Notes under the pieces: generated by a model
The model's database searches: none
What the model was told of the DNA's origin: nothing
What the model saw: only the letters and a program-made list of their open reading frames with translations
Program-made: the position numbers and the translations under genes
Part shown: piece by piece, positions 33,215 to 48,217 of the stretch
Position numbering within the stretch: position 1 is the stretch's first letter
How the letters are laid out: every line of letters begins with the position of its first letter
From: Caballeronia turbans
GTDB lineage: Bacteria; Pseudomonadota; Gammaproteobacteria; Burkholderiales; Burkholderiaceae
Assembly (NCBI GenBank): GCA_001544655.2
Contig: FCOD02000001.1
Coordinates: forward strand, 124,001 to 188,000
DNA: 64,000 nucleotides
Direction: 5' to 3'

Positions 33215-33241
33215 GCTGTGCACTTGCCGAGGGCACATGAC

Positions 33242-33700
33242 ATGAAAAAACGATCCGCTGACGCACTCGCGCTCGCGCGTTCGCTCCTCGTTGCGGCCGC
33301 GCTGGCGACGGCGATCGCCGCGCCTTGCGCGTTCGCCGGGCCGACGCCCGCGCCCGCCAACGCCTATGCGTACATCGGCTATCCGAACGACGGGCAGACC
33401 TTGCCCGCGGGCAAGCCCTTCAAGGTCTGGTTCGGGCTGCGCTTCATGGGTGTCGCGCCGCGCGGCGTGAAGTTTCCGAACACGGGGCATCATCATTTGC
33501 TGATCGATGTCGACTTGCCGCCGATGGATCAGGAGATTCCATCGGATCGCAATCACCTGCACTACGGCGCCGGCGAAACCGAAACGATGCTCGAACTGCC
33601 GCCGGGCAAGCACACGATTCAGCTTCTGATGGGCGATGACAAGCACATACCGCATAACCCGCCTGTCTATTCCAAGAAGATCACGATCTACGTCAAATGA
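33242..33700 (+). CDS. Exported DUF4399 protein, copy 2
   Basis: 152 residues, a tandem paralogue of the preceding gene. The two are nearly identical from HHHLL to the C-terminus (DLPP.DQEIPSDRNHLHYGAGET, ELPPGKHT.QLLMGD) but differ in the signal peptide and in the first half of the domain. Co-transcribed with copy 1 and followed by a stem-loop. Confidence 0.85.
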   Translation: MKKRSADALALARSLLVAAALATAIAAPCAFAGPTPAPANAYAYIGYPNDGQTLPAGKPFKVWFGLRFMGVAPRGVKFPNTGHHHLLIDVDLPPMDQEIPSDRNHLHYGAGETETMLELPPGKHTIQLLMGDDKHIPHNPPVYSKKITIYVK

Positions 33701-33736: not shown

Positions 33737-33844
33737 CCCGATTTCTTTTATCGACTTCGATTCCGCGCGCTGTATGGCGGAGGGAAACGCTCGTGAGTGC
33801 AATCCGTAGGGGTGTCGCTTGACAACCGACAGTGCAATAGCGAA

Positions 33845-33862
33845 GTGTTGGGGGAACAGCAC
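33845..33862. promoter_or_regulatory. Candidate enhancer (UAS) upstream of precursor A
   Basis: GTGTTG-GGGGAA-CAGCAC, an 18-bp inverted repeat about 90 bp upstream of the -24 element. The half-sites are identical to those of 46988-47005 read on the other strand. Likely binding site of the sigma54 activator encoded at 44.1 kb. Confidence 0.5.
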
Positions 33863-33952
33863 CACGAAGGCGCGGATGCCGGCGCAGCATCGAATGATCG
33901 AAGCCTTGCACAGCAACGCACACGGCGAAAAGCAGCCGACGCCCGATGTAAT

Positions 33953-33968
33953 TGGCACACCCTATGCA
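33953..33968 (+). promoter_or_regulatory. Sigma54-type promoter of precursor A
   Basis: TGGCACACCCTATGCA: -24 TGGCAC, GG-N10-GC spacing exact (GG 33954-33955, GC 33966-33967). Transcription would begin near 33979, about 60 nt before the ATG. Confidence 0.72.
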
Positions 33969-34040
33969 TTACATGGTCGCGAGCAGACAAGTTGCTCGAA
34001 GCCACCACCGAAACGCGCGACGCGCACCCAAGGAGCGGAA

Positions 34041-34340
34041 ATGAAGACGCTGATCATCAAGGACCTTCCCGTCACCGAAGAACTGGACAGCCGCGCGATG
34101 TCCGCGGTGCGCGGCGGCTATGCGACCCTGTTCCCCGGTTATATCTCGATGAACGGGGCGACGCTCTCGATGCCGTTCAACCCGCAGCAGATCATCAACC
34201 AGACGCAGACCACGTTCAACCAGAACGGCAGCAACATCGCGTTCGCCGAGGCGCTGAAGTCGCAATCGACGGTCGCGCCGACGCAGGACGCGAAGAACAT
34301 CGCCAACGTCAACTTCGGTGTGGCGGGCAACCTCGCGTGA
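34041..34340 (+). CDS. Double-glycine-leader exported protein precursor A
   Basis: 99 residues. Leader MKTLIIKDLPVTEELDSR then AMSAVRGG, with the GG at 25-26. The likely 73-residue product starts YATLFPGY, has no cysteine and is rich in Asn and Gln (QQIINQTQTTFNQNG). The leader aligns without gaps to precursor B at 46.8 kb: DL at 8-9, ELD at 14-16, AMSA at 19-22, GG at 25-26. GG leaders are the substrate mark of C39-peptidase ABC exporters, one of which is encoded at 41.1 kb. AGGAGCGGAA precedes the ATG. No known family; bacteriocin, adhesin and fibre subunit remain possible. Confidence 0.82.
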   Translation: MKTLIIKDLPVTEELDSRAMSAVRGGYATLFPGYISMNGATLSMPFNPQQIINQTQTTFNQNGSNIAFAEALKSQSTVAPTQDAKNIANVNFGVAGNLA

Positions 34341-34657
34341 GGCGAACGCCGCGAGGAATGAACCGGATGCCGGTGCGGTAAGCATTCATGCAGTCATGCA
34401 GTCGGCAGTAAAAGCGGGGCACGGGGAGCTCTGCTGTAACACCGCCCGCGACATCGGGCGCTGCGGTTCGGCCGGGGTCGCATCCCGCCGGACCGCGTCA
34501 CGAAGCGCGACGTGCCACAGAGCACGCGCGCGCCACGTGACTTAACCCGTATGGAGTCCCGGCGCGCCGTGTGATTTACTTGAAGGACCGAACGGCCGGC
34601 GCCGCGCTTCTCACCCATCAAACTGACCGTCGGTGCGCGTTCACCGGGAGCGAGATC
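34341..34657. other. Intergenic region between precursor A and the TolC-like gene
   Basis: 317 bp. No gene with a ribosome site or family signature and no GG-N10-GC promoter was found. Read-through from the precursor A promoter is possible. Confidence 0.45.
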
Positions 34658-36106
34658 GTGCGAGCCTTGTTGCCATCGTTGCGCGTGACCATCAGGCGCG
34701 AGTGGGCCGTGCTGCCAGGGCTGATTGCCGCTGTGTTGCTGTCCGGCTGTATCGACTTGAAGGTGCCGACTTATCAGCGGCCCGACACACCCGAGAAAAC
34801 CGCCTTCACGAAGATCGACGCAGCGAAGGTCGCCGCGGCCGACACGATACAGCCCGACTGGTGGAAGCAGTTTCACGATCCGACTCTGGACGCGCTGGTG
34901 GAGAAGGCCATCAACGGCAACTTCGATATCAAGGTGCTGGCCGCACGCATCCAGGTGGCAGGCGCGCAGATCGGCGAGGCGCGTGCGGGCGCGTTGCCGT
35001 CGATGGATCTCGGCGCGGGCGCGAGCTTCGAAAAGACGACCGGCCAGCCGTTCTCGAAACAGTACAACCTCGCGACGCAGGTGAGTTGGGACATCGACAT
35101 CTGGGGCTCGGTCCAGAAGGGCGTGCAGGCGCAGAAAGCCGAATTTCGCGCAACCGAAGCGGACTGGCGCGCGGGCTATCTCGAACTCGTCGCGCTCGTA
35201 TCGACGACATACTTCCAGATACTCCAGTTCGACGATCAGATCGAGCAGCAGAAGCAGACCATCGCAACGAACCAGCAGATCCTGACGATCTTCGAAGGCA
35301 TGCAGAAGAACGGCCTCGTGCCGAAGACGCAGGTGCTCACGCAGCGTGCGGAACTGAATCGTCTGACGCGCGAGTTGCTGGAACTGCGCCGCTCGCGCGA
35401 CCTCGCGAATAACGCGCTCTCGACGCTGATCGGCGTGCCCGCGGGCGAGTTCAGAATGCCCGACGGCAAGCTCCAAAAGCGCGTGCAGATTCCCCCGGTG
35501 CCGGGCGGACTGCCGTCGCAGTTGCTCGCGCGCCGTCCCGATCTCATCGCGGCCGAATATCGCGTGCTCGAAGCCTACGACCTCGTCGGGCAGGCGAAGC
35601 TCGCGCAACTGCCGACCATCAACCTGACCGGGCGTGGCGGCACGGCGAGCTTTCAGTTGACCGATCTGTTGAAGATGTTCACGTTGAGCTTCGTGCCGAG
35701 CATCAATATCCCGATTCTCGATCCGTCGGTGCGCGCGCACGTGAAGACGACCGAAGCGCAGACGACGGTCGCGGAACAGCAATATCGCAGCACGGTGATG
35801 AACGCCTTCGAGGAAGTGGAGAACGCGCTCGTCAATCTCGATTCGCACACGAAGCAGCGCGTCGAGTTGCAGCAGGAAGTCGATCAGTTGACGGTGGTCG
35901 CCGCGCAGATCGACGCGCAACTGAAAGAAGGCGTGATCTCGCAACTCCAGGTGTTCGAGACGGAGCGCACGCTCCTCGCGGCGCAACTCGCGCTGCTCGC
36001 GAACCATCAGCAGATTCTTTCCGACACCGTGACGCTCTATAAGGCGTTAGGCGGCGGCTGGCCGATGATCGATGTGCAAAGCGCAAGCAAGGACACGACG
36101 AAGTGA
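34658..36106 (+). CDS. TolC/NodT-type outer-membrane channel lipoprotein
   Basis: 482 residues. A lipobox LLSGC follows the signal sequence, and two outer-membrane-efflux repeats follow, with PDWWKQFHDPTLDALVEKA near the start and ARRPDLIAAEYRVLEAYDLVGQAK in the middle. These proteins form the periplasm-spanning exit duct of tripartite pumps and type I secretion. The GTG at 34658 is supported by GGGAG 7 nt upstream and the leader sequence. No RND pump is adjacent, so it probably serves the HlyD-type adaptor and ABC exporter downstream. Confidence 0.87.
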   Translation: MRALLPSLRVTIRREWAVLPGLIAAVLLSGCIDLKVPTYQRPDTPEKTAFTKIDAAKVAAADTIQPDWWKQFHDPTLDALVEKAINGNFDIKVLAARIQVAGAQIGEARAGALPSMDLGAGASFEKTTGQPFSKQYNLATQVSWDIDIWGSVQKGVQAQKAEFRATEADWRAGYLELVALVSTTYFQILQFDDQIEQQKQTIATNQQILTIFEGMQKNGLVPKTQVLTQRAELNRLTRELLELRRSRDLANNALSTLIGVPAGEFRMPDGKLQKRVQIPPVPGGLPSQLLARRPDLIAAEYRVLEAYDLVGQAKLAQLPTINLTGRGGTASFQLTDLLKMFTLSFVPSINIPILDPSVRAHVKTTEAQTTVAEQQYRSTVMNAFEEVENALVNLDSHTKQRVELQQEVDQLTVVAAQIDAQLKEGVISQLQVFETERTLLAAQLALLANHQQILSDTVTLYKALGGGWPMIDVQSASKDTTK

Positions 36107-36164
36107 AGCGCTTCATTCATTGTCTCCTTCGCAATGATATGAATAACTAACGATCGTTCCAGGA

Positions 36165-36180
36165 TGGCTCGCCATTTGCG
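36165..36180 (+). promoter_or_regulatory. Sigma54-type promoter of the FHA-led exporter operon
   Basis: TGGCTCGCCATTTGCG: -24 TGGC.CG, -12 TTGC, GG-N10-GC exact (36166-36167, 36178-36179). About 70 nt before the FHA gene. No matching GTGTTG-N6-CAGCAC site was seen upstream. Confidence 0.7.
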
Positions 36181-36250
36181 TGACGAACCGGTGCCGCACG
36201 ATTGACTACGACGATGCGTGACTTAAACTCTCAACAGCCGCCGGTGACGA

Positions 36251-38881
36251 ATGACTTCCATGACGGCGCGGACCAACCTGTCCATGCGCCCGACGATGCC
36301 GGGCATTCCTCTGGCGCGTCGGCGGCAGCGGCTGGACGTACCTCGTGACATGGACATGGCTCAAGGCTTCTCCATAGCGGAACCACAGCCGGGCGTGGGC
36401 GAGGCATTCGACGTCATCCTGAAGCCCATGCCGGGTCCCGAGCTTGCCGGCGAGATGGCCGACAGGCTGACGGAAATCCGCATCGACGAAAATCTCTTTG
36501 CGATCGGCCGCGCCGAAGCGCCGTTCGACACGAGCCCGCCCGAAGCCGTCGCGCAACTCTCGCGGCGGCACGCGCGCATTTTCATCGAGCACGGGTTCGT
36601 CTATATCGCCGATCTGGCCAGCAAGAACGGCACCGCCGTGAATGGCACGCCCGTGCGCGACACGCCCGCGCGCGTGAGAAACGGCGACATCGTTTCGTTC
36701 GGCAGCCGGCTGTCGTATCGCGTGCAGTTCGCGCCGCGCACGCGGCGTGTGAACATGCCGAAGCCGATCGGCATCACGCTCACGCCGCAGCGCAACGATC
36801 TCGGTCTTCATCCCGTCGAGCTCGCCCAATTTCCGTTTCTCGTCAGCAAGACCGACGAGACCTTTTCGCGCTATCGCGAGCAGTATCCGCATCAGGTCAA
36901 TTACGTGTCGCGGCGGCACGCGCATGTGTTCATCAAGGGCGGCGCGCCGTTCGTCGAGGATCTCGGCAGCACCAACGGCACCTTCGTGAATGGCGAGCGG
37001 CTCGGCGCGTCGGCGGTCGAGCTGAAGAACGGCGACACCGTCGCGTTCGGCGGCACGCACTTCGCGTACACGGTGCATCTGCACGGCGAAGAGGGCGAGT
37101 CGACGCTCACCGAAATGGTCGCACAGGCAGCGCAGACCCACGACGACGAGCTTGAGAGCGACAAGACGACCTTCGTCGGCTCGGCGCACTCGTTCCTCGA
37201 TATCTTTTGCGTCGATCAGGCCGCCGCGCGCGAGGACGAAGTCAACGAGGAGGCGCAGCCGAAACCCGCAATCGAAAGCCGTCATGACACGCGCGCCGCA
37301 AAGAAGCGCAGCAAGTTCGCGCTCTTCGTGGCCGAACTGCATCGTGCGCTCGCAAGCGATGACCGACGCGCCGCGCGCCGCACGCGCATCATCATCGTGT
37401 GCGTGCTGGCCATGCTCGTCGCGGGCGGCACGGCGCTCTTCTATAGCGGCTCGCCCGAGCGTCACGCCAAATCGCTGATGTCGCACGGCGAGTTCGGCGA
37501 GGCGGCGACCGTCACGAACGACTATCTGAATACGCATCCGCAAGACGCGCAGTTCACGTCGATGAACACCGAGGCCGTGCTCAAGTCGAACGTGCCGCGC
37601 TGGCTCGCCGCGCTGAAAAAGGGCGATTTCGCGAGCGCGGACGCGATCATCGCGCAGATGCGAACGCTCGCCGCGCACAACGCCGATGTGCATTCGCTCG
37701 TCGACGAGCTCGAGTGGATCGGCAAGCTGGAGAGCTTCGTGATGAGCCGCGGCGGCGCCGAGGCGCCGATCCGCATGTACGCCGACGAGCCGCGCATCGG
37801 CGCGATCCTGAAGCACTGGGAAGCGGATGCGGCGGGCCATCAGCGCGATCTCGACCGCATCGCGGGCTACGTGCCGGAGTTTCGCGATCCGTATGCGCTC
37901 GCGCTGAGTCATCTGCGCAAGCTGCAAAGCGACGATTCCGTGTATCTCGCGGCCATCGACAGGCTCGATGCGAGCATCGTCAAGAGCCTCGGCCAGGACG
38001 ATCCCGATGCGATCAACGCATCGCTGAAAGAATACGCGGACAAGTACCCGCGCCTCGCGGGCCTCGATCGCGTGCGCGCCGATCTCGATGCCTATACCGG
38101 CCTGCGGCGCGGTCTCGACGCCGCAAGCCTCGCGCCGCTCGCGGGATCGGTCAGCAAGACGAATTTCTCGACGCCGCCGTTCAAGGAGAAATTCAGGCAG
38201 ATGAGCGCGAGCCAGCTGCCGCCGCCCGATATGCTCACGCAATACGCGAGCGTCGCCGATGCGTGGAACCGCGGCCAGAGCGCGCAGGCGATCGACGGCC
38301 TGCAGAAGCTGCCGCAAGGTTCGTGGTCGCCGACCGTGCAAAAGGAGCTCGCCCACAAGAAGGCCGTGGCCGCCCAGTTTGCGGATTTACAGAAGGCGCG
38401 CGGGACGAAGGGCTATGAAGATGCGTTGCTGTCGTTCTACGAAACACTGGATCTCGATGCCGACCCGTTCTATGCGAAGGCGGTCGCGCCCGATGTCGCA
38501 TCGCTGAAAGACAAGGCGACGGCGCGCGCGCAGGCCTTGATGACGCAGGCGCAGACGCTCTGGCAGCAGTATCGGACGAATGGCGGCATCGGCGGGTCCC
38601 AGCGGCTCGAATCGGGCGTGTCCGATACGTTCAGGACCCAGGCGCGGCTTTTGTCGGACGCAGAGGATGCGGCCACGCGCGGCATGCGCATCTTCAGGCA
38701 AGTGAAGGCGGACAGCGCGACGGCGAAGTGGACCGCGCTCGCCAATGAGATCGACACCGAGGCGGATTTGCAGCGGCGCTCGCTGCAGGATCTGCGCATG
38801 GTGCTCGAACCGGGACTTCTCAATACCAAGCTGAGTCTGATCGGCGGAGGCACGCGCAGTGAAGAGAGACACACACCTTAA
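36251..38881 (+). CDS. Double-FHA membrane protein of the exporter operon
   Basis: 876 residues. Two phosphothreonine-binding FHA domains: first about 83-155 (SRRHARIFIEHG, SKNGTAVNG), second about 197-275 (SRRHAHVFIKGG, STNGTFVNG). A transmembrane helix at about 377-398 (IIIVCVLAMLVAGGTALFY) leads to a long helical, probably periplasmic part. The FHA domains would read Ser/Thr phosphorylation in the cytoplasm and the rest could link to the exporter. The start may be as late as about 36350 since the first 30 residues look non-globular. Its end overlaps the HlyD gene by 23 bp. Confidence 0.85.
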   Translation: MTSMTARTNLSMRPTMPGIPLARRRQRLDVPRDMDMAQGFSIAEPQPGVGEAFDVILKPMPGPELAGEMADRLTEIRIDENLFAIGRAEAPFDTSPPEAVAQLSRRHARIFIEHGFVYIADLASKNGTAVNGTPVRDTPARVRNGDIVSFGSRLSYRVQFAPRTRRVNMPKPIGITLTPQRNDLGLHPVELAQFPFLVSKTDETFSRYREQYPHQVNYVSRRHAHVFIKGGAPFVEDLGSTNGTFVNGERLGASAVELKNGDTVAFGGTHFAYTVHLHGEEGESTLTEMVAQAAQTHDDELESDKTTFVGSAHSFLDIFCVDQAAAREDEVNEEAQPKPAIESRHDTRAAKKRSKFALFVAELHRALASDDRRAARRTRIIIVCVLAMLVAGGTALFYSGSPERHAKSLMSHGEFGEAATVTNDYLNTHPQDAQFTSMNTEAVLKSNVPRWLAALKKGDFASADAIIAQMRTLAAHNADVHSLVDELEWIGKLESFVMSRGGAEAPIRMYADEPRIGAILKHWEADAAGHQRDLDRIAGYVPEFRDPYALALSHLRKLQSDDSVYLAAIDRLDASIVKSLGQDDPDAINASLKEYADKYPRLAGLDRVRADLDAYTGLRRGLDAASLAPLAGSVSKTNFSTPPFKEKFRQMSASQLPPPDMLTQYASVADAWNRGQSAQAIDGLQKLPQGSWSPTVQKELAHKKAVAAQFADLQKARGTKGYEDALLSFYETLDLDADPFYAKAVAPDVASLKDKATARAQALMTQAQTLWQQYRTNGGIGGSQRLESGVSDTFRTQARLLSDAEDAATRGMRIFRQVKADSATAKWTALANEIDTEADLQRRSLQDLRMVLEPGLLNTKLSLIGGGTRSEERHTP

Positions 38882-40232
38882 GCCGTTGTCGGAGGCGCTC
38901 GGGGAACACGGCGCAGAAGGCATCGCGATACTCACGGCCGAGCCGCTCGGGCTCACGCAAGGGCTCGTCTTCGCGATGGTGGCGCTCGTCGCTTCGGCGC
39001 TCGTGTGGTCGTTCGTCGGCCATGCCGACGTGATGGTCAGCGCCCAGGGCACGCTCGCGCCGGAATCGGAAGTGCGGCGCTTCTATGCACCGATCGACGG
39101 CGAACTGGCCGACCTCTATATCGCCGAAGGGCAGCCGGTGCGCAAGGACGATGTCGTCGCGCGCCTGAACGCGCGTGGTGCAATCGAGGCGGCCAGCAAC
39201 GCGCTCGAAGCGCAACTGAAGCTCGACGATGCCGAGCGCGAGTGGAAGCAGTTTCCCGAGAAAAAGCTGCTGATGGAGCGCAAGATCGCCGCGCTCAAGG
39301 ACCAGATGGATGTGGAGGAGCATCAGCATCAGCAGCGTGTGGCGGAAGGCACGAGCAAGCTCGCGGAAGGCCAGAAGGCGCAGTTGCAGGAAGCGCGCAG
39401 CACGCTCGAAAACGCACGCCGCGCGCGCGATGCGGCCAAGGTGGAACTCGACCGCTTTCAACGTCTGCTCGCGCTGCCGGGCGGCGGGGGCGTGGCGGAG
39501 GCGCAGGTCGATGCGAAACGCAATGCGTATCTGGAAGCGGACGGTGCATATCGCGTGGAGCAATCGCGGCTCGCCGAACTCGATTTCCGCCTGAGCCACG
39601 ATTTCACGCAGGCGAAGCGTCAACTGGAAACGAGCGGTCAGGAGGCGACGACTCTGCGGCTGCAGTACGAAGCCGCGATGCGCGAAGTCGCGAGCACGGA
39701 AGACAAGTTGCGTCTGCAACTACAGACGGCGCGGCTCGTCGCGGATGCGGCCGCGCGCATCAGGTTCGAGAACATCGACAAGGACAATTTTCTGCTGATT
39801 CTCGCGCCGGTGTCGGGCGTGGTCACCGACGTCACATCGACGCAGCCGGGCGACAAGATTCAGGCGAACACGCCGCTCGGCGGCATCGCGCCGGCGAATG
39901 CGAAGCCGGTGCTTAAGATCGAGATCGCCGAGCACGACCGCGCGTTCCTGCGCGAAGGGCAGCGCGTGAAGCTCAAGTTCAACGCGTTTCCCTATCAGCG
40001 CTATGGCGTGATCGACGGCACGCTCGCGTTCATCTCGCCCGCGACCAAGCCGAGCCCGTCGACCAAGCAACCCGTCTATGAAGGACGCGTGACGCTCGAT
40101 CGCGATTTCTATCAGATCGCGGACACGAAGTATCCGCTGCGCTACGGCATGACGGCGACCGCGGAAATCGTAGTGCGCGAGCGGCGCCTGATCGACCTCG
40201 GGCTCGATCCATTCCGCAGTGTGGCGGGATAG
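38859..40232 (+). CDS. HlyD-family membrane fusion (adaptor) protein
   Basis: 457 residues. A short cytoplasmic start, TM helix (about 34-54: LVFAMVALVASALVWSFVG), barrel-sandwich halves (RRFYAPIDGELADLYIAEGQPV; NFLLILAPVSGVVTDV), a long coiled coil between (about 105-290) and a C-terminal beta barrel (EIAEHDRAFLREGQRVKLKFNAFP). It joins the ABC exporter to the outer-membrane channel in type I secretion. The start is GTG within the FHA gene, with GGAGG about 7 nt upstream. Confidence 0.9.
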   Translation: MKRDTHLKPLSEALGEHGAEGIAILTAEPLGLTQGLVFAMVALVASALVWSFVGHADVMVSAQGTLAPESEVRRFYAPIDGELADLYIAEGQPVRKDDVVARLNARGAIEAASNALEAQLKLDDAEREWKQFPEKKLLMERKIAALKDQMDVEEHQHQQRVAEGTSKLAEGQKAQLQEARSTLENARRARDAAKVELDRFQRLLALPGGGGVAEAQVDAKRNAYLEADGAYRVEQSRLAELDFRLSHDFTQAKRQLETSGQEATTLRLQYEAAMREVASTEDKLRLQLQTARLVADAAARIRFENIDKDNFLLILAPVSGVVTDVTSTQPGDKIQANTPLGGIAPANAKPVLKIEIAEHDRAFLREGQRVKLKFNAFPYQRYGVIDGTLAFISPATKPSPSTKQPVYEGRVTLDRDFYQIADTKYPLRYGMTATAEIVVRERRLIDLGLDPFRSVAG

Positions 40233-40305
40233 GAATGGAGGGTTACACGAGCGCCGCAACGCGGACATGATGCGCAATTCAACATAGAACTGAACGGAGA
40301 ACGAC

Positions 40306-41058
40306 ATGACGGCGATTGTGCGTATCGACGACGAAGTGGTCGACGTCGGCGAATTTGTCAGGTTATTGAAGCTGAACGGCCAGTTCGACGGTCTCATCGA
40401 GCAACTCGTGCGCGACAAGCTGACCGTGCGCGCGGCGAAGAAGTCGGGCGTCGCCGTGAGCGACGAGGAAATCCAGAACCGCGCCGATCAGTTTCGCCGC
40501 ATTCGCGGGCTGCATCGCGCGGCGGACATGAACAACTATCTCGACGCGCTGCACGTGAGCCTCGACGAGTTCGAGGTCTATATCACCGACACGCTCTATC
40601 AGGAAAAGATGCTCGACAAGGTCGGCACCGAGCGCGAGATCGAAGAATACTTCCAGCTCAACTCGCCGAAGTTCGACAGCATCGAAGTCAGTCACATCCT
40701 GCTCGATACCGAGGGTAGCGCGAAGGAGATGATCTCCTATCTCAACGACGATCCCGAGAGCTTCGCCGAGATGGCGCGCGAGCATTCGCTGGCCGACACG
40801 CGCGACGCGGGCGGCGTGATCGGCCGGGTGATGCGCGGTCAGATGAAGCCGGACGTCGAGGCGAAAGTGTTCAACGCGGAAGTCGGCGATCTGCTCGGAC
40901 CGTTCATTTCCGCGGATGGCGCGTCGTATGAAATTTTCGCGGTGACGGCGAAGTATCCCGCGAAGCTCGACGAAGACGTATCCGCGGAAATCCGCCGCCT
41001 GCTGCGCGAAGAGTGGATGCTGGCGCGCGCGCAGGAACATGTCATCGAAGCACGTTGA
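40306..41058 (+). CDS. Cytoplasmic parvulin-type peptidyl-prolyl isomerase (SurA/PpiC-like)
   Basis: 250 residues. N-terminal SurA-like helical domain (1-120) and a parvulin domain (about 122-225: IEVSHILLD, FAEMAREHSLADTRDAGGVIGRVMRGQM, VGDLLGPF). There is no signal peptide, unlike SurA or PpiD, so it acts in the cytoplasm. It lies between HlyD and the peptidase exporter and probably handles precursors before export. Confidence 0.87.
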   Translation: MTAIVRIDDEVVDVGEFVRLLKLNGQFDGLIEQLVRDKLTVRAAKKSGVAVSDEEIQNRADQFRRIRGLHRAADMNNYLDALHVSLDEFEVYITDTLYQEKMLDKVGTEREIEEYFQLNSPKFDSIEVSHILLDTEGSAKEMISYLNDDPESFAEMAREHSLADTRDAGGVIGRVMRGQMKPDVEAKVFNAEVGDLLGPFISADGASYEIFAVTAKYPAKLDEDVSAEIRRLLREEWMLARAQEHVIEAR

Positions 41059-41078
41059 CTGACGGAACGCGACAGAAC

Positions 41079-44000
41079 ATGGACGCGCCATCGAGCCTGG
41101 ATTCCCCCGCCGACTTTCTGTCGTCGGTCGAGATTCTTTCGCCATTCACGCGCGAAGAGATCGAGCATCTTGCGGCCAATGCCGAGTCGCGCCGTTTCGG
41201 CTTCGGTGAGACTGTATGCAATGCGGGCGATGCGGCCGACGGGCTCTATATCGTGAAGGCAGGGTCCGTGCGCATCTTCACCGAGGAGCACGGCAAGGAA
41301 ATCAGCATGGGGGTCAAGAAGGAGCGCGAGACCTTCGCCGATATCGCGATGCTGCGCGATTACCGGCACGAGTCGTCGGTGCGCTCCTCCGGCAAGACCG
41401 AGCTGCTGTATATCCCGCGCGCCGCGATCGATCCGGTCATCGCGAAGAATCCCGCCGCGCTCGCGTTCGTGACGAGCTACGTCGCGATCAATTCGGCGGG
41501 CGGCTTCGTTGCGAAGCTCTTCGATCTGCGCGGCAAGCTCAACAAGGCGGAGCTCGAGGAATGCGTGCGCAGCGTCGGCGTGAAGCGCGTCGCCGAGGGC
41601 AAGGAGATTCTCAAGCAGGAATCGCGCGACGACCGGCGTCTTTATGTCGTGCGGCAGGGCGAAGTGCGCATCGTGCGCGAAGAGGGCGGCGAAAAACATG
41701 TGCTCGCCACGCTCGGCCCCGGCGAGATCTTCGGAGAGAAGGCCTGCGTGATGCGTCAGGAGCAGATGGCTTCGGCAATCGCCAGCGCCGATACGCGCCT
41801 GCTCGTGATCCCCGAAAAAACGGTGCATTTCATCATCGAGCGCAACGTGAAGCTGCGCGAAGTGCTCGAAGAGCGCATCCGCTTCACCGAGCGCGAACTG
41901 CAGCGCCAGAAGAAGCTTGCCGAGCGCCGCAAGTTGCCCGCGATGCTCGACCTGCACACGAAGCCCGAACTGGGCGAGCGTGTGATCAAGCGCTTCGCGT
42001 GGGTCGAGCAGGCCGAAGAGATGGACTGCGGTGCGGCCTGTCTCGCGATGATCTGCCGTCACTACGGCATCAACATGACGCTCGGGAAGCTGCGCGAACT
42101 CGCCAACGTGACGACGTCCGGCGCGACGCTCGATTCACTCGCCCGTGCGGGCGAATCGCTTGGCTTCACGACGCGCGGTGTGCAGTGCACGTTCGAATCG
42201 CTGCGCGGCTTCGAGATGCCGTTCATCGCGCACTGGGAGGGTTATCACTACATCATCATCTACGGCGTGTCGAGCGAGAACGTGTGGGTCGCGGACCCGG
42301 CGATCGGCTTCAGGAAGATGACGGTCGGCGAGTTCGAGCGCGGCTGGAGCGGCACGTGCCTGCTGTTCACGCCGGGCCAGGATCTCACGCAAAGGGCCGT
42401 GTCGCGCTCGCCGTGGCTGCGTTTCGTCGGTTATCTGAAGCCGTACAAGAAGATCCTGCTGCATCTCTTTCTCGCCACATTCGTGATTCAGGTGCTGGGC
42501 GTGATTCCGCCGCTCATCATCCAGAACATTCTCGACGGCGTGATCGTGCATCAGAACGTCAACTTGCTGCACGTGCTGATCGGCGGGCTCGTCATCGCGA
42601 GCCTGTTCACGCAACTCATGACGACGATCCGCGCTTACCTCGCGAACTTCATGGTCCGCAACATGGATTTCGCGATGATGTCGCAGTTCTTCAGGCATAC
42701 GTTTTCGCTGCCCTTTGGCTTCTTTGCGAAGCGCAAGACCGGCGACGTGTTCGCGCGCTTTCAGGAGAATCACACGATCCGCGCGTTCCTCACGGAATCG
42801 ACCGTATCGACCGTGCTGAACCTGCTGATGATCTTCATCTACTTCACGATCATGTTCCTCTACAACGTGAAGCTCACGTTGCTGCTGATCGCGTTCGTGA
42901 TTCCGATGATGGTGCTCACGATCGTCGCGACGCCCCGCATCAAGCAGAACGCGCGCGAGACCTTTTCGGCAGGCACGGATGCGCGTTCGTATCTGATGGA
43001 AGCGCTCGGCGGCGTGGAGACGGTGAAGGGCATGGGCATCGAGCGCCCGGTGCGCCTGAAGTGGGAGAAGAAGTACGCGAAGTCGCTGGAAGTGCAGTAC
43101 AAGTCGCAGCGCTTCAATATCGCCGTGGGCCTCTGCAGCCAGTTGCTGAACGCGGCGACGACCATCGGCGTGCTGTGGGTCGGCGCGAATCTCGTGCTCG
43201 CGCGCGAACTGACCATCGGGCAACTGATCGCGTTCAACGCCTACATGGGCAGCGTGCTGGCGCCGCTGATGGGTCTCATCAACTTGTGGAGTCTCTTGAA
43301 CGACGCGGGCGTCGCAATGGAGCGCCTGGGCGACGTGCTCGACATCGAGCCGGAGCAGAAGCCCGAAGACATGCAGCAGCGCGTGATGCTGCCGGATTTG
43401 CAGGGCGATATCAGCTTCAACGGCGTGTATTTCCGTTATGGCGAAGGCGACGCGCCCTACGTGCTGGAGAACATCAGCTTCGATATCAAGCCGGGTGAGC
43501 TGATCGCGATCGTCGGGCGCAGCGGCTCGGGCAAGACCACGCTCGCGAAGCTGCTCGTCGGTTTCTATGCGCCGAGCGAGGGCAAGATGACTGTGGATGG
43601 CTACGATATCAACGTCGTCGACAAAGGTTTTTTCCGCGCGCAGATAGGTTATGTGATGCAGAGCAATCTGCTGTTCTCGGGGACGATCGCCGAGAACATC
43701 GCGAGCGGCGACGAAGCACCCGACAGGCGGCGCATCGAGGAAGTCGCGAAGATGGCCGACGCGCATGCGTTCATCGTCAAGATGCCGCTCGGTTATGAGC
43801 AAGTGGTCGGCGAGCGCGGCGTGGGGCTTTCGGGCGGACAGATTCAGCGGCTATGCATTGCGCGCGCGCTGTATCACGACCCGCGCCTGCTCGTGTTCGA
43901 TGAAGCCACGTCCGCGCTCGATACGCAATCGGAAAGCAATATTCTCGGCAACATGCAGGAGATATTGAAGGGCCGCACGGCCGTGATTATTGCGCACCGG

Positions 44001-44138
44001 CTCTCGACCATCATGCGCGCCGACAAGATTCTCGTGCTATACGAAGGCGGCATCGTCGAGCAGGGCAAGCACGACGAACTCGTCGCGCGAAAGGGCATGT
44101 ACTACCAACTCGTGCAAAAGCAACTGAGCGCAGCATGA
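41079..44138 (+). CDS. Peptidase-containing ABC exporter with two cNMP-binding domains
   Basis: 1019 residues. Two cyclic-nucleotide-binding folds (about 18-140, 158-285: GDAADGLYIVKAGSVRIF; LYVVRQGEVRIVREEGG) precede a C39 peptidase with C317 (MDCGAACLAM), H390 (GYHYIIIYG) and D406 (VADPAIG). An ABC membrane domain (about 440-720) and an ATPase follow, with Walker A GRSGSGKTT (813-821), LSGGQ (917-921), FDEATSALD and AHRLS. C39 exporters cut after GG and export the product. The ATG at 41079 lies 20 bp after the parvulin stop. The domain order recalls HetC of cyanobacteria. Confidence 0.93.
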   Translation: MDAPSSLDSPADFLSSVEILSPFTREEIEHLAANAESRRFGFGETVCNAGDAADGLYIVKAGSVRIFTEEHGKEISMGVKKERETFADIAMLRDYRHESSVRSSGKTELLYIPRAAIDPVIAKNPAALAFVTSYVAINSAGGFVAKLFDLRGKLNKAELEECVRSVGVKRVAEGKEILKQESRDDRRLYVVRQGEVRIVREEGGEKHVLATLGPGEIFGEKACVMRQEQMASAIASADTRLLVIPEKTVHFIIERNVKLREVLEERIRFTERELQRQKKLAERRKLPAMLDLHTKPELGERVIKRFAWVEQAEEMDCGAACLAMICRHYGINMTLGKLRELANVTTSGATLDSLARAGESLGFTTRGVQCTFESLRGFEMPFIAHWEGYHYIIIYGVSSENVWVADPAIGFRKMTVGEFERGWSGTCLLFTPGQDLTQRAVSRSPWLRFVGYLKPYKKILLHLFLATFVIQVLGVIPPLIIQNILDGVIVHQNVNLLHVLIGGLVIASLFTQLMTTIRAYLANFMVRNMDFAMMSQFFRHTFSLPFGFFAKRKTGDVFARFQENHTIRAFLTESTVSTVLNLLMIFIYFTIMFLYNVKLTLLLIAFVIPMMVLTIVATPRIKQNARETFSAGTDARSYLMEALGGVETVKGMGIERPVRLKWEKKYAKSLEVQYKSQRFNIAVGLCSQLLNAATTIGVLWVGANLVLARELTIGQLIAFNAYMGSVLAPLMGLINLWSLLNDAGVAMERLGDVLDIEPEQKPEDMQQRVMLPDLQGDISFNGVYFRYGEGDAPYVLENISFDIKPGELIAIVGRSGSGKTTLAKLLVGFYAPSEGKMTVDGYDINVVDKGFFRAQIGYVMQSNLLFSGTIAENIASGDEAPDRRRIEEVAKMADAHAFIVKMPLGYEQVVGERGVGLSGGQIQRLCIARALYHDPRLLVFDEATSALDTQSESNILGNMQEILKGRTAVIIAHRLSTIMRADKILVLYEGGIVEQGKHDELVARKGMYYQLVQKQLSAA

Positions 44139-45448
44139 AAATACTCGACCAACCGGAAGGTGACACCAGCGCGCCCGCGTCATCGGCGATTTCATATGCG
44201 GGGCTCATCGAGAAGATCGAGATCCTGCGCTCGACACTCAGATGGACCTCGCGTCTCGAGCGGCCCGAAATCGAGAAGCTGCTGCGGCAGGCGAGCACCT
44301 TGCGCGACGAAGTCATGCAACTGTCGCACAAGGAGCGCTTCGTGCAGGCGGCTGCCGCGGAGCCGAAGCGCGACCTGCCGGCGGGCGCGCGGCGTCAGGC
44401 GCTGATCGAACGCAGTTTCGTGTTCGAAGGCACGTTCGGCGATAACCCGAAGCTGCTCGAAGCGCTGGAAATCGCGGAAAAAGCCGCGCCGACGGATCTG
44501 CCCGTGTTGATCGACGGCGAGAGCGGCACCGGCAAGGAACTGATGGCGAAGGTCATTCACGCCAACGGCTCGCGCGCGGACAAGCCGTATATCTCGGTGA
44601 ACTGCGGCGCGATTCCCGACAATCTGCTGGAGTCGGAACTGTTCGGGCATCGCAAGGGCGCGTTCACGGGCGCGTCCAACGATCGCAAGGGCAAATTCGA
44701 AAGCGCGCATACGGGCACGATCTTTCTCGATGAGATCGGCGAGTTGCCTTTGTCGGGACAGGTGAAGCTGCTGCGTGTGCTCGAAGCGCACGAGATTCAG
44801 CGCGTGGGCTCGGATGAGCCGATCGGGGTGGACACGCGCATCGTCGCGGCGACGAATCGCAACTTGCGCAAGTTCTGTGACGAGGGGCGCTTTCGCGAAG
44901 ACCTGTTCTATCGGCTGAGCGTGATTCATCTGACGCTGCCGGCGTTGCGCGAGCGGCGCGACGAGATTCCGCTGCTGCTCGCCTATTTCGGCGATGAAGC
45001 CGCCGCGACCCTGAAGCGCAGGCCGGTGAAGCTGTCGCCGAGGCTGCGCGACTTTCTGCGCAACTATGACTATCCCGGCAATATCCGCGAGTTGCGGAAC
45101 GTGGTGTACCGGATCGCGTGTCTTGCGGGCGATATGGCCGACATCGATCATCTGCCCGTCGATATCCGGCCGAAGTCATCGCTCTCGCTGGCAATGGGCG
45201 GGCCGGCCGCAAGCGGCAACGTCATCGCGACGGCGAGTTCGCTGGCGGAAGCGAAGCGCGTCGCAAGCGATGAGGCAGAGCGCGCGTTTCTCGAGCGCGG
45301 GTTGCAGGAAACCGGCGGGACGGTCGCCGAGCTTGCCAGGCGGTATGAGATGAACCGGTCGCATCTGCAGATGCTTCTGAAGAAGCATGGGCTGCATTCG
45401 AAGGAGTTTCGAGCGGCGGCGCAGAAGAACAAGGAAGCGGCAGAGTAG
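44135..45448 (+). CDS. Sigma54-dependent activator of the exporter locus
   Basis: 437 residues. About 100 N-terminal residues form helices with no receiver, GAF or PAS signature. The AAA+ domain has Walker A GESGTGKE (128-135), GAFTGA (175-180) and [11 protein letters not shown] Fis-type helix-turn-helix is at the C-terminus ([21 protein letters not shown]). The ATG overlaps the exporter stop (ATGA). Four GG-N10-GC promoters in this locus are the obvious targets. With no sensor domain, activity may be set by another protein, e.g. the FHA or PP2C partners. Confidence 0.92.
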
Positions 45449-45600
45449 CGGCCTGACCGCCCAAAGCATCTTGGCGTCGAGTGCTTGTCCGCGTCATTGG
45501 CGGATGTGATCCGTATCATCTCGGCGCGCGGTCGGCGAAGATGAAGGACGCCGACGTCGATTTTTTGCAGACTCAGCAACGGCGTCATTCCTGAACGCCG

Positions 45601-46371
45601 CTAAACCGACGGATTCACCTGCGTCTTGTCCGGCGCCGTCAAATCCTCTGCATGCACGACGACGACTGATATATTGTCGCGCCCGCCGCGCGCCAGCGCG
45701 ATCTCCAGCAGCCTTTGCGCCGCCATCTCGCAATTCCCCGGCGCGAGTTCGCTGATGATCTCCGCTTCGCTCACCTCGTTCGACAAGCCGTCGCTGCACA
45801 GCAGGAACGTATCGCCGTCGTTCAATGCGAGCGTGTTTTCGTCGAGTTCGAGCACGTCGAGCGCGCCGACCGCACGCGTGATCAGATGCTGCGCCGGATG
45901 ATGCAGCGCTTCCTCCGCCGTCAATTGACCGCGCGCCTTGAGTTCCTCGACATGGCTGTGATCGCGCGTGAGCTGCACGAGGCGCCCCTGCCGTAGCAGA
46001 TAGATGCGGCTGTCGCCGGCCCACATGTAGCCGCATGCGCCATCGCGCGCCGCGAGCAGCACCACCGTGCTGCCGATGCGCGATACCGTCCGCCGCGCCG
46101 CTTCCGCGCGCAACTCATCGTTGACGTCGAGAAGCCGCGTGCGCGCATCGTCAATCACGCCCGTAAGGTCGTTCGCCGCCGATACCCTCGCCAGGCTCTC
46201 GATCACCATGCGGCTCGCAAGATCGCCGACCGCGTGTCCGCCCATGCCGTCGGCCACGGCCCACAAGCCGCGCTCGGGGGCGTCGAGCAGCGCGTCTTCG
46301 TTGATCTGCCGCACGCAGCCGGTGTCGGTGCGGGCGGCGGAAGTCCATCGAAACTCAGTGTTGAAGGTCAC
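45601..46371 (-). CDS. PP2C-type Ser/Thr protein phosphatase
   Basis: 256 residues. Metal- and phosphate-binding motifs are complete: VRQINEDAL, WAVADGMGGHAVGD, STVVLLAARDG, GDSRIYLLR, LCSDGLSNEV, GGRDNISVVVVH. Start is GTG at 46371 with GGAGG about 7 nt upstream; a GTG at 46473 would add 34 poor-looking residues. It follows precursor B by 105 bp on the same strand, so both share the sigma54 promoter. It would remove the mark that the FHA protein reads; no kinase gene is in the window. Confidence 0.9.
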   Translation of the reverse strand: MTFNTEFRWTSAARTDTGCVRQINEDALLDAPERGLWAVADGMGGHAVGDLASRMVIESLARVSAANDLTGVIDDARTRLLDVNDELRAEAARRTVSRIGSTVVLLAARDGACGYMWAGDSRIYLLRQGRLVQLTRDHSHVEELKARGQLTAEEALHHPAQHLITRAVGALDVLELDENTLALNDGDTFLLCSDGLSNEVSEAEIISELAPGNCEMAAQRLLEIALARGGRDNISVVVVHAEDLTAPDKTQVNPSV

Positions 46372-46476
46372 GGCAACCTCCGGAATCCTGGGTGGCGCGG
46401 CGTCGGCCGCGCGTCGCGGACGGTCCCGCTCATTGTGAACCAACGCGCGCCCGAAGCGAATCTTGATATGCACCGT

Positions 46477-46806
46477 TCAACCCGCGCGATTGCCTGCCAC
46501 CGAGCTCGGATTGACCGTAAGCGTTGCGCCGTTGCCCGTGTTGCTGACCGCGACGTTCTGAAACTGATTGACCATCTGCCCGACCGTGATGTTGGTGATG
46601 TTGTTGGTGACTTCATAGACGTTGTTGGTCACGTCGATGAGAGTCACCACGGCGCCGCCTGCCCCTGCGCCGCCCGACGGACGATCCACGTAGGGCGTGA
46701 TCCAGCCGTACACCCACGGCGCACCGCCTCCGCCGCTGATGGCCGACATCGCCGCGTGATCCAGCTCGCGGTCGTATTCAAGATCGGTGACGGTGAGGGC
46801 GCACAT
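46477..46806 (-). CDS. Double-glycine-leader exported protein precursor B
   Basis: 109 residues. Leader MCALTVTDLEYDRELDHA followed by AMSAISGG, with GG at 25-26, ungapped match to precursor A. The likely product starts GGAPWVYGWITPYVD, has a Gly/Ala stretch and an Asn-rich part (TNNVYEVTNNITNITVGQ, VNQFQNVAVSNTGNG). No cysteine after the GG. GGAG lies 9 nt upstream of the ATG. Transcribed with the phosphatase. Confidence 0.82.
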   Translation of the reverse strand: MCALTVTDLEYDRELDHAAMSAISGGGGAPWVYGWITPYVDRPSGGAGAGGAVVTLIDVTNNVYEVTNNITNITVGQMVNQFQNVAVSNTGNGATLTVNPSSVAGNRAG

Positions 46807-46853
46807 GTCGTTTTCTCCGGGATGGGCCTGTGAGCAGGACGTCCGGAGTCAAT

Positions 46854-46868
46854 GCAAGGCCCATGCCG
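46854..46868 (-). promoter_or_regulatory. Sigma54-type promoter of precursor B and PP2C
   Basis: On the minus strand CGGCATGGGCCTTGCA: -24 GGCA, perfect -12 TTGCA, GG-N10-GC exact (GG at 46866-46867, GC at 46854-46855). Predicted start near 46842, about 36 nt before the ATG. Confidence 0.72.
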
Positions 46869-46965
46869 ATCCGCGGCCGCCCTAGCGTTTTTCCGCGCGT
46901 GGCCGATCGGGCGGCGTTCTCGCGGCATGGGCCGCATCGCGAGGGGTGACATCCGTTGGGTCCTC

Positions 46966-46984
46966 GCCAACAAGCGATGTTGGC
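46966..46984. repeat. Perfect inverted repeat in the control region
   Basis: GCCAACA-AGCGA-TGTTGGC, 7-bp perfect arms. Shares the TGTTGG core of the enhancer-like sites; about 100 bp upstream of the precursor B promoter. Confidence 0.55.
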
Positions 46985-46987
46985 GCA

Positions 46988-47005
46988 GTGCTGAACAACC
47001 AACAC
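46988..47005. promoter_or_regulatory. Candidate enhancer (UAS) shared by precursor B and LRAT genes
   Basis: GTGCTG-AACAAC-CAACAC; its reverse complement is GTGTTG-GTTGTT-CAGCAC, with the same half-sites and 6-nt spacer as the site upstream of precursor A. About 120 bp from the precursor B promoter and 168 bp from the LRAT promoter. Confidence 0.5.
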
Positions 47006-47088
47006 ATGCCGGCGCTTCCCACGCTCGCAGGCACGCGGCCGGGCGAGACGCGTTCTGGCGCATGCAACCCAACAAACACACTTCGAAA

Positions 47089-47107
47089 GTGTTGGCTGGC
47101 CAAGCAC
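47089..47107. promoter_or_regulatory. Third, imperfect enhancer-like repeat
   Basis: GTGTTGG-CTGG-CCAAGCAC, arms with one inserted base, directly after a second palindrome ACACTTCGAAAGTGT (47077-47091). About 65 bp upstream of the LRAT promoter. Confidence 0.35.
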
Positions 47108-47172
47108 ACAACCTCGTTGCGAATCGGCAGCGAACAATGGTTAATCTAGCAAAATCAATAAGTTATGAGGGC

Positions 47173-47188
47173 TGGCAAGGAAGATGCA
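47173..47188 (+). promoter_or_regulatory. Sigma54-type promoter of the LRAT gene
   Basis: TGGCAAGGAAGATGCA: -24 TGGCA.G, -12 ATGCA, GG-N10-GC exact (47174-47175, 47186-47187). Predicted start near 47199, about 55 nt before the chosen ATG. Confidence 0.68.
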
Positions 47189-47254
47189 AATGACATGGCA
47201 ACCCGGCGCCAAACAAACACCCTGGCGCCAAGCAGAAAAGCATCGGAGCCAGCC

Positions 47255-47755
47255 ATGTCAACCAACCAGCAATCCGGAGTGATCGACCAGCAAGCCGCCG
47301 CGAGCGGTTTCTCGCTCGACGACGAACCGGCGCTCGGCACCGAACTCGTCACGCGCCGCTCGGGCTACGAACACCACGGCATCTATGCGGGCAACGGCAT
47401 GGTCATCCACTATGCCGGCTTTGCGAAGTCGCTGCATCGCGGCCCGGTCGAGGAAGTCACCGTCGCGCAGTTCGCCGCAGGCCACGAAGTCACGATCCGT
47501 CAGAACCCGGCCGCGAAGTTCGTCGGCATGGAAGCGGTGCGCCGCGCGCGCAGCCGCCTCGGCGAAGACCAATACCACCTGCTGACCAACAACTGCGAGC
47601 ACTTCGTCACGTGGTGCCTCGACGGCCGCGCCCGCAGCCGTCAGGTGCAAGCGTGCTTCGTGCATCCGCGCGCCGCGCTTCGTGCGGTGTCGGGACTGTT
47701 CCGCGCCTATGTCGCCGCCGAGCGCCGCCGCATGAACGCGGCGCTCGCAGCCTGA
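47255..47755 (+). CDS. LRAT-domain (NlpC/P60-like) protein
   Basis: 166 residues. LRAT fold with His in EHHGIYAGNGMVIHYAG and Cys in NNCEHFVTWCLDG. Bacterial LRAT proteins are a permuted papain-like group; acyltransferase or thioesterase activity is known in eukaryotic members but unproven here. No signal peptide; a hydrophobic stretch near the end (LRAVSGLFRAYVAA) might touch membrane. ATG at 47255 with GGAG about 6 nt upstream; the earlier ATG at 47165 overlaps the promoter. A lipid- or amide-modifying role for exported products is an untested idea. Confidence 0.82.
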   Translation: MSTNQQSGVIDQQAAASGFSLDDEPALGTELVTRRSGYEHHGIYAGNGMVIHYAGFAKSLHRGPVEEVTVAQFAAGHEVTIRQNPAAKFVGMEAVRRARSRLGEDQYHLLTNNCEHFVTWCLDGRARSRQVQACFVHPRAALRAVSGLFRAYVAAERRRMNAALAA

Positions 47756-47791
47756 ACCGCACGTCCTGCCATCGATTCCGGGGAGACCATC

Positions 47792-48040
47792 ATGCAAACC
47801 ATCGAAAACTCGCTGCACTGGGCTGTCGACAAGTGGCTCGCCCCCACACCCGCGCGTCCGGCACGCGTCGTGCGTCTGTGCCGCTCGCATGTCACCGGCG
47901 CGCGCTATGTGTGCATAGAGGCGCAGCATCCGGGCGGCCCGCTCGCGATCATCTTCTTCCGCCATGACGACGGCACCTGGAACGTGTTCCCGCCGCAGGC
48001 GAAGCGTCCGTCGATGAGCGCGCAGCGGCTCGCCGCCTGA
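47792..48040 (+). CDS. Small hypothetical protein, 82 aa
   Basis: No known family. Sequence IENSLHWAVDKWLAP then a compact beta-like part (HVTGARYVCIEAQHPGGPLAIIFFRHDDGTWNVFPP). GGGGAG 8 nt upstream of the ATG and a 36-bp gap after the LRAT gene suggest co-transcription. No signal peptide. Confidence 0.7.
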   Translation: MQTIENSLHWAVDKWLAPTPARPARVVRLCRSHVTGARYVCIEAQHPGGPLAIIFFRHDDGTWNVFPPQAKRPSMSAQRLAA

Positions 48041-48217
48041 AGCGCGTACGATCAAGCCGGCGCGCGTCGGGCTGCCCCGGCTTTGACACGGCAATCCCGC
48101 TGCCGCTACTCTAGGTGGACCCATCGCGGCCATTGAAGTCGCCGGGTCGCACGGATGCGGCAGGTCGTGGTAGTTTTGCGTCCGTGAACCAGATCGTACA
48201 TTTTCGAGGTATTGCCG

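Follow-up and report, generated by a model that had tools for sequence, protein, structure and literature searches.

Do the genes gathered around a peptidase-containing ABC exporter in Caballeronia turbans form one secretion system, and what would switch it on? We addressed this question in a 64,000-nucleotide (nt) stretch of contig FCOD02000001.1 (positions 124,001 to 188,000; termed the window), for which an initial annotation had proposed a complete, apparently undescribed export system for proteins with double-glycine (GG) leaders under its own sigma54 regulon. That observation as a whole is partly confirmed and its interpretation is supported: the system is real, and larger than first described. 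We consider it probable that the locus encodes type I secretion of the PCAT kind, with its own sigma54 regulon and a threonine-phosphorylation circuit; export is probably gated by threonine phosphorylation. This reading rests on sequence and on comparison between genomes, namely, on the gene set, the leaders, the promoters, a shared dyad, precursors dispersed in the genome, and the coinheritance of a kinase, the FHA protein, the exporter, and the precursors. From these elements, we infer the binding of the activator to the dyad, the order of signalling, the targets of phosphorylation, transcriptional read-through, secretion, and the fate of the products.

Conservation of the export machinery

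Every gene named in the initial annotation is present, and Pfam identified OEP, two FHA domains, HlyD, parvulin, two cNMP domains with C39 and ABC, sigma54 AAA+, PP2C, and LRAT. From left to right, a caspase/FGE gene (- strand) and two DUF4399 genes (+) precede GG1 (+) and the run channel-FHA-HlyD-parvulin-exporter-activator (+); PP2C and GG2 (-) follow, and then LRAT and a gene for an 82-residue protein (+). The features of the central part are as follows.

33813..33831, no strand: putative activator-site dyad TGTYGG-N7-CCRACA, one mismatch (gap-specific enrichment in relatives)
33846-33864, no strand: second dyad left of GG1, 33 bp further, two mismatches
33952..33968, +: predicted sigma54 promoter of GG1, TTGGCACACCCTATGCA (QQ-family equivalents, 54/71 in relatives)
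34041..34340, +: GG1, QQ-family precursor, leader MKTLIIKDLPVTEELDSRAMSAVRGG (leader profile, E 6.1e-14)
34663..36106, + (open frame from 34571): NodT/OEP outer-membrane channel, lipoprotein-like (TIGR01845, above cut-off)
36251..38881, +: membrane FHA protein with two FHA domains, one hydrophobic segment, and a long C-terminal part (Pfam; 77/80 loci)
38859..40232, +: HlyD-type adaptor (Pfam; 77/80 loci)
40306..41058, +: parvulin without hydrophobic segment (Pfam; nearest NCBIfam entry TIGR04500, below cut-off; 80/80 loci)
41079..44138, +: cNMP-cNMP-C39-ABC exporter, PCAT type (Pfam; motifs)
44135..45448, +: sigma54 activator, GAFTGA present (Pfam AAA+; motif)
45601..46473, -: PP2C phosphatase, directly behind GG2 (Pfam)
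46477..46806, -: GG2, GWI-family precursor (leader profile, E 3.2e-13)
46853..46869, -: predicted sigma54 promoter of GG2, TCGGCATGGGCCTTGCA (GWI-family equivalents, 53/53 in relatives)
46954..46972, no strand: putative activator-site dyad between GG2 and LRAT, one mismatch
47056-47074, no strand: second dyad between GG2 and LRAT, two mismatches
47172..47188, +: predicted sigma54 promoter of LRAT, CTGGCAAGGAAGATGCA (equivalents in 40/46 loci; 52/71 named loci)
47255..47755, + (open frame from 47165, which overlaps the promoter): LRAT-fold protein, NCEHF motif (Pfam; 71/80 loci)

We then looked into the conservation of this arrangement, the absence of which the initial annotation had named as the finding that would tell against a link between the parts. 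A scan of species genomes yielded 276 stretches encoding a relative of the N-terminal half of the exporter, and the best 80 of these (termed named loci) belong by name mostly to Caballeronia and Paraburkholderia, with Pararobbsia, Noviherbaspirillum, and others. Paraburkholderia xenovorans LB400 carries the locus (L139). The six machinery genes, from channel to activator, occur in one order and on one strand in 77/80 named loci, PP2C and GG2 are each found in 75/80, and LRAT and the small protein are found in 71/80, several of the absences falling in short stretches that lie at the end of a contig. In all 74 named loci holding both GG2 and PP2C, PP2C directly follows GG2 on the same strand. 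The genes from position 48212 onwards are present in only 17 to 21 of the 80, and the right edge of the gene set is therefore real. In five loci (L053, L054, L123, L124, and L126), the genes PP2C, GG2, LRAT, and small protein are flipped as a block with respect to the machinery operon.

Within the family, the FHA protein was found in 55 of 200 genomes (the window's included) and in 7 of 25 genera. The 54 other family loci all contain the channel, FHA, HlyD, parvulin, and ABC genes, and 53 of them contain the activator; the remaining stretch ends before the position of the activator. The exporter of the window genome shares 99% identity with that of Caballeronia novacaledonica over the first 440 residues, and a search of a plasmid collection returned five named records. 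In an order-wide sample, the exporter was present in 3 of 300 genomes (the window's included), all of the same family, and a phylum-wide sample yielded 8 positives among 398 genomes, of which five lie outside the family. Two of the distant loci (L188 and L190) keep the activator, parvulin, HlyD, cNMP-C39-ABC, and FHA proteins together at 22 to 46% identity, with three channel proteins following the core genes in L188. Since such loci occur in other families of the phylum, the core is suggested to be older than this family. In an Oxalobacteraceae metagenome-assembled genome, an FHA-GAF-HD protein, which we take to be HD-GYP-like, is encoded just before the channel gene (L132:1419-3356), hinting at a cyclic-dinucleotide input.

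We next analyzed the sequences of the machinery proteins. The exporter combines two cNMP domains, C39, the ABC membrane domain, and the ABC ATPase, and it retains the C39, Walker A, signature, and H-loop motifs. Its residues 301 to 1013 align to solved "ABC-type bacteriocin transporter" chains (4ry2, presumably PCAT1, and others) and to ComA. It is the only C39-type exporter of the genome among the matches listed, all the others of which begin at residue 448 or later. Among the PCAT features of type I secretion, we found a C39-ABC fusion, an HlyD adaptor and an OEP channel (both identified by Pfam), and candidate substrates with GG leaders. Assignment to the NHLP/Nif11 export system was rejected, the ABC subunit scoring 555.4 bits against a cut-off of 853.3 (TIGR03796) and 406.7 against 709.4 (TIGR03797), and neither GG1 nor GG2 matched a curated NHLP or Nif11 leader family at E 0.01. 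The parvulin carries no hydrophobic segment, in agreement with the cytoplasmic location first assigned to it; because its 87.7 bits fall below the 180-bit cut-off, it is not a member of TIGR04500. The LRAT protein likewise has no hydrophobic segment. The stop codon of the exporter overlaps the start of the activator, in which Pfam detects no sensor domain. Residues 20 to 73 of the activator are almost invariant in 81 sequences (T34 in 99%), which suggests a docking or phosphorylated segment.

Precursors and their predicted sigma54 regulon

A leader profile identified 151 GG-leader open reading frames in the 54 family loci and the window. They share a single leader type, M..L.I.DL....ELD..AMSAVRGG, in which GA or GS replaces the final GG in some; by their mature parts, they form four families: QQ (73), GWI (53), TLLR (14), and GPL (11). 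The mature parts of 16 orthologue pairs have ratios of nonsynonymous to synonymous substitution (dN/dS) of 0.03 to 0.34, i.e., purifying selection, compared to 0.02 to 0.05 for six exporter pairs. The two precursors of the initial annotation are therefore real genes. Single hhalign comparisons pointed to a weak Asn/Gln-rich core common to the QQ, GWI, and GPL mature parts (E 6e-5 to 3e-4, probabilities of 41 to 66%), to which TLLR did not align in the profile comparison. GG1 and GG2 had no Pfam or NCBIfam match at E 0.01, a Pfam search of seven precursors and the 82-residue protein at E 10 identified no family, and searches of solved structures with both precursor profiles gave no significant match. 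A pattern search for GG open reading frames in the distant loci gave nothing convincing.

What the predicted exported proteins may do can be weighed against these data. They could be antibacterial, that is, class II microcins or bacteriocins of the Cdz kind, which a kinase and sigma54 would control in the manner of type VI secretion. Class II bacteriocins usually leave the cell as GG-leader peptides exported by PCATs, genomes carry 3 to 9 leader genes each, and excerpts of PMC5380434 describe CdzC (86 amino acids) and CdzD (84 amino acids) of Caulobacter as leaving by type I export and killing. Against this, the mature parts evolve under purifying selection, the GWI motif is maintained across genera, the precursors have no Pfam match, and the two in the window adjoin the channel, PP2C, DUF4399, and LRAT genes rather than small membrane proteins like CdzI. 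No immunity gene is evident beside the window's two precursors, the two neighborhoods screened; together with the purifying selection, this speaks mildly against bacteriocins, which we regard as unlikely. Alternatively, the products may build a surface layer, fiber, or matrix that is made upon an envelope or contact signal. The common Asn/Gln-rich core would suit such a material, and conserved sequences with paralogues fit a structural role, but the precursor profiles matched no family or solved structure significantly, TLLR does not align to the core, and most dispersed precursors (see below) do not resemble it, so that we judge this function somewhat unlikely.

The initial annotation had assigned GG-N10-GC promoters to both precursors and to three other units. 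GG-N10-GC sites counted as promoters when they lay no more than 160 nt upstream and agreed with the consensus at 5 or more of 7 further letters; such sites precede 53/53 GWI, 54/71 QQ, 1/14 TLLR, and 0/10 GPL genes, compared to about one or fewer per family in a shuffled control. For the precursors, we quote counts per gene because the per-locus GG1 row includes L059, L062, and L068, where GG2 is the best match; in the GG2 row, the best match of L074 is a QQ gene. Fourteen QQ genes lack a site even when 4 of 7 is allowed, and each of them is a later member of a tandem array. GPL genes lie behind a QQ gene in 10/10 testable cases, as do 10/14 TLLR genes; a single promoter for each operon thus accounts for most of these results. 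Solitary TLLR-family leader genes were seen in L076, L079, L080, and L085. Among the other units, sites were present upstream of LRAT in 40/46 loci, of the channel in 10/55, of HlyD in 4/55, of FHA in 1/55, and of parvulin and ABC in 0/55. Hence, the promoters of both precursors and of LRAT held up, LRAT being the only one of the three other units to be supported, while the site before FHA, found in a single locus that is the window itself, is probably due to chance.

We then searched for putative activator sites. Among hexamers upstream of GWI genes, CCAACA ranked first (43/53 loci, compared to 11 expected), and its context revealed the dyad TGTYGG-N7-CCRACA. In the 54 loci and the window, exact dyads numbered 27 at gap 7 and 0 to 4 at any other gap from 0 to 15; with up to one mismatch, there were 164 at gap 7 and 4 to 26 at the other gaps. 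Of these 164, 130 have a GG-leader gene no more than 520 nt downstream, and some dyads form pairs with a spacing of about 33 bp. The exact dyads are distributed before GG-leader genes (10), the channel gene (3), and FHA (14). In the genus g3, probably Burkholderia, a perfect dyad stands about 190 to 325 nt before the FHA gene (L059-L066, L068, L070, L071, L089, L091, and L093), with at best a 4-of-7 sigma54 site.

In the named loci, which overlap in species with the 54 family loci and thus do not give independent counts, a dyad with at most one mismatch precedes GG2 in 70/75 cases, LRAT in 69/71 (a region shared with GG2), and GG1 in 55/76, a row that includes L132, L177, and L181 with another precursor as the best match. 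No such dyad precedes HlyD, parvulin, ABC, or the activator in 77 to 80 named loci, and the 40/74 found before PP2C are explained by the upstream stretch reaching the GG2 promoter. Seven loci lack a QQ gene at the left. One of them is cut at the contig start and was set aside; in all six others, the channel gene is immediately preceded by dyads and a sigma54 site, and so the machinery operon, activator included, probably belongs to the regulon. Promoters and activator-like sites are conserved at the predicted target genes, with the TLLR exceptions, and these conserved GG-N10-GC sites and gap-specific dyads support the sigma54 regulon first proposed. The activator of this locus may be the protein that binds the dyad. 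As a genome-wide finder, the dyad alone was rejected (36 one-mismatch sites, compared to 24 for the reversed pattern).

Beyond GG1 and GG2, the leader profile matched six further places in the genome at E up to 10, four of which we examined (C86 and C99 were left out). Three of the four have a sigma54 site (6, 6, and 5 of 7) and dyads at one or two mismatches. We also inspected ten such places in relatives, including two broken copies; at seven of the ten, a site scoring 5 of 7 or better accompanies a dyad of no more than two mismatches, and one of these dyads is perfect. The dispersed precursors share the leader and mostly the promoter, and they should use the same exporter. A short dispersed family, KEKALVE (L203:10675- and L245:6319-), has the leader and no GG-N10-GC site.

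A kinase outside the window and the coinheritance of the parts

The window genome has two Pkinase matches. One, C44, was set aside; a gene near it looks, as we take it, like type VI TssK. The other is a membrane Ser/Thr kinase of 716 residues with hydrophobic segments and a C-terminal DUF4384 behind them. Its gene lies on the same contig, with about 130 kb separating it from the cluster's right edge; a dispersed precursor gene is oriented divergently to it, and the region between the two contains a dyad. A full-length orthologue is present in 29/29 exporter-positive genomes (as two aligned pieces in two of them) and an intact one in 0/19 exporter-negative genomes; in this respect, the kinase is coinherited with the FHA protein (77/80 loci) and PP2C (75/80 loci). 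The distance from the kinase gene to the FHA gene is no more than 12 kb in 15 of the 29 positives. Among 12 of these 15 whose surroundings were analyzed, eight kinases adjoin the caspase/FGE and DUF4399 genes left of the main operon, and the other four lie beyond LRAT and the small protein at the opposite end. With this kinase, the kinase/phosphatase/FHA circuit would be complete and would resemble the one known from type VI secretion. A kinase with an N-terminal cNMP domain is encoded directly before HlyD-ABC-FHA in a different family of the phylum (L187:5914-7404). The set first called complete therefore was not: the kinase and the dispersed precursors lie outside the window, and the caspase/FGE gene also follows the system.

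A kinase with a hydrophobic segment and DUF4384 behind it would also be in keeping with peptide signalling, in which the exported proteins would act on kin or a host and the kinase would relay the feedback; excerpts of PMC10986499 propose that the cNMP-C39-ABC protein HetC of Nostoc exports a signalling peptide. For a pheromone, the predicted mature products are large (mostly about 40 to 85 amino acids) and numerous, and they belong to several dissimilar families; we identified no receptor, and we regard signalling as improbable.

The leader was present in 16/16 exporter-positive genomes, with 3 to 9 matches per genome, and in only 2/13 exporter-negative genomes, G185 and G173, both of which retain relics of the system. 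In G185, what is left is fragments of the kinase, part of the caspase/FGE gene, and a remnant precursor, and G173 keeps a truncated GG2 and a piece of LRAT that runs into the next gene, which looks like a deletion. The two (L236 and L241, respectively) belong to the same genus, with the exporter gone and relics left. These cases bear on the objection that the cluster unites unrelated neighbors without a common function. The link drawn in the initial annotation relied on clustering and promoters only, and the Noviherbaspirillum loci are split, but many species combine the gene order with the promoters, dyads, kinase, and leaders, and these features decay together in G185 and G173. We consider chance neighborhood very improbable.

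The remaining features of the locus are its neighbors and the discarded promoter.

30511..32553, -: caspase (C14) and FGE-sulfatase domain protein, left neighbor (Pfam; signal-like N terminus by eye)
32714..33214, +: DUF4399 protein, first of two neighbors (Pfam; 75/80 loci)
33218..33700, +: DUF4399 protein, second of two neighbors (Pfam; 75/80 loci)
36164..36180, +: GG-N10-GC site before FHA, presumably the FHA promoter first claimed, judged to be chance (1/55 loci)
47792..48040, +: small conserved protein, 82 amino acids, without Pfam family (71/80 loci)

The caspase/FGE gene is found in 74/80 named loci; it was matched in 8/8 exporter-positive genomes (only the FGE-domain part aligned in G013, G016, and G069) and was intact in 0/8 negatives. 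A possible role is a maturation step on the exported proteins. A PADLOC scan returned only generic kinase, caspase, ABC, cNMP, and AAA+ matches.

Proposed mechanism and relation to known systems

We propose that the membrane kinase, which has a C-terminal, probably extracytoplasmic, DUF4384, senses an envelope signal and phosphorylates its targets, and that the membrane FHA protein would read this phosphorylation and PP2C reverse it. The sigma54 activator, whose residues 20 to 73 stand where a sensor domain usually is, would then be released or recruited, bind the TGTYGG-N7-CCRACA dyads, and fire the GG-N10-GC promoters of the precursors and LRAT. PP2C would be expressed behind GG2, and the machinery operon would be expressed by read-through from GG1; as the activator ends this operon, positive feedback would result. 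The cytoplasmic parvulin may hold or prepare the precursors, C39 would cut after GG, and the ABC exporter would drive the mature proteins through HlyD and the channel. Nucleotide binding to the cNMP domains perhaps tunes export, as argued for HetC.

Several observations weigh against this reading. The loci are related, so that the counts are not independent; shared ancestry accounts for part of the coinheritance, although exporter-negative genomes are found within the same genera; and some of the 19 exporter-negative genomes are small. The Noviherbaspirillum loci L177 and L181 keep parvulin, ABC, activator, PP2C, and precursors, with no channel, FHA, or HlyD homologue in the covered stretch, and the LRAT, small, DUF4399, and caspase/FGE proteins have no assigned role. 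In the window alone, GG-N10-GC sites are not in excess (10 at a minimum of 5 of 7, compared to 15.5 in shuffles); the window's sites are credible because they recur in relatives. Four TLLR genes have no precursor within 1,200 nt upstream and no site within 400 nt, one of the four dispersed precursors examined has a two-mismatch dyad only and no sigma54 site, and the exporter-negative G173 holds an intact-looking dispersed precursor with a promoter and a perfect dyad. As to the dyad, only 10 of the 27 exact copies stand before GG-leader genes, the 14 before FHA come from one genus with no good sigma54 site beside them, one-mismatch copies occur in the divergent region between caspase/FGE and DUF4399 in 10/74 loci, and the genome-wide excess over the reversed pattern is only 1.5 times.

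Each module of the proposed PCAT-kind system has known relatives, so that we regard it as a variant of type I secretion and not as a new category; what is new is the combination of modules and the genome-wide precursor regulon. In agreement with the initial annotation, we found no description of this unit in the open-access full-text literature, subscription papers being outside the scope of the search. A more specific proposal, which could be true but which we hold only tentatively, is a distinct type I subtype gated like type VI secretion, in which an envelope-sensing kinase, PP2C, and membrane FHA protein decide when the cNMP-C39 exporter assembles and fires, and in which the activator, by the overlap of its gene with that of the exporter, limits expression of a genome-wide set of diverse small proteins to the presence of the exporter (export-coupled sigma54 control). 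Caballeronia, Paraburkholderia, and their relatives are partners of plants and insects. Leader, promoter, and dyad together would define a searchable family of exported small proteins in these genera, and leader and promoter would make a list of candidate substrates predictable and testable in each genome.

Exporters of the PCAT/bacteriocin type (PCAT1 and ComA) resemble the system in the exporter alignment, the HlyD adaptor and channel, and the GG leaders; here, there are two N-terminal cNMP domains, a cytoplasmic parvulin, FHA, PP2C, a kinase, and a sigma54 activator are attached, and no immunity gene is evident beside the window's precursors. The parvulin also matches the TIGR04500 putative peptide maturation (PpiC-related) proteins, at the subthreshold score given above. 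CdzABCD-I of Caulobacter is alike in that two small proteins leave by a type I system; in the excerpts of PMC5380434, it has a dedicated small membrane immunity protein, of which none is evident beside the window's precursors, and the locus described here differs further by its sigma54 sites and kinase. HetC of Nostoc PCC 7120 shares the N-terminal cNMP domain on a C39-ABC exporter, and excerpts of PMC10986499 describe this domain as required in vivo and binding ppGpp in vitro, and hetC as having no membrane fusion protein gene nearby and an unknown substrate, whereas the locus described here has candidate substrates and a complete tripartite machine, with two cNMP domains on the exporter. In type VI secretion, as excerpted from PMC10482370, PpkA phosphorylates Fha and PppA reverses this, and in other species VasH and sigma54 drive expression; a kinase, an FHA protein, a phosphatase, and a sigma54 activator thus serve a secretion machine there as they would here. 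The differences are that the machine here is of type I (no type VI structural [Tss] protein was found among the ten cluster proteins scanned with Pfam), that the FHA protein has a hydrophobic segment, and that the kinase has DUF4384. If our reading is true, type I secretion gains a kinase, a phosphatase, a phosphopeptide reader, and a dedicated sigma54 activator, as in type VI.

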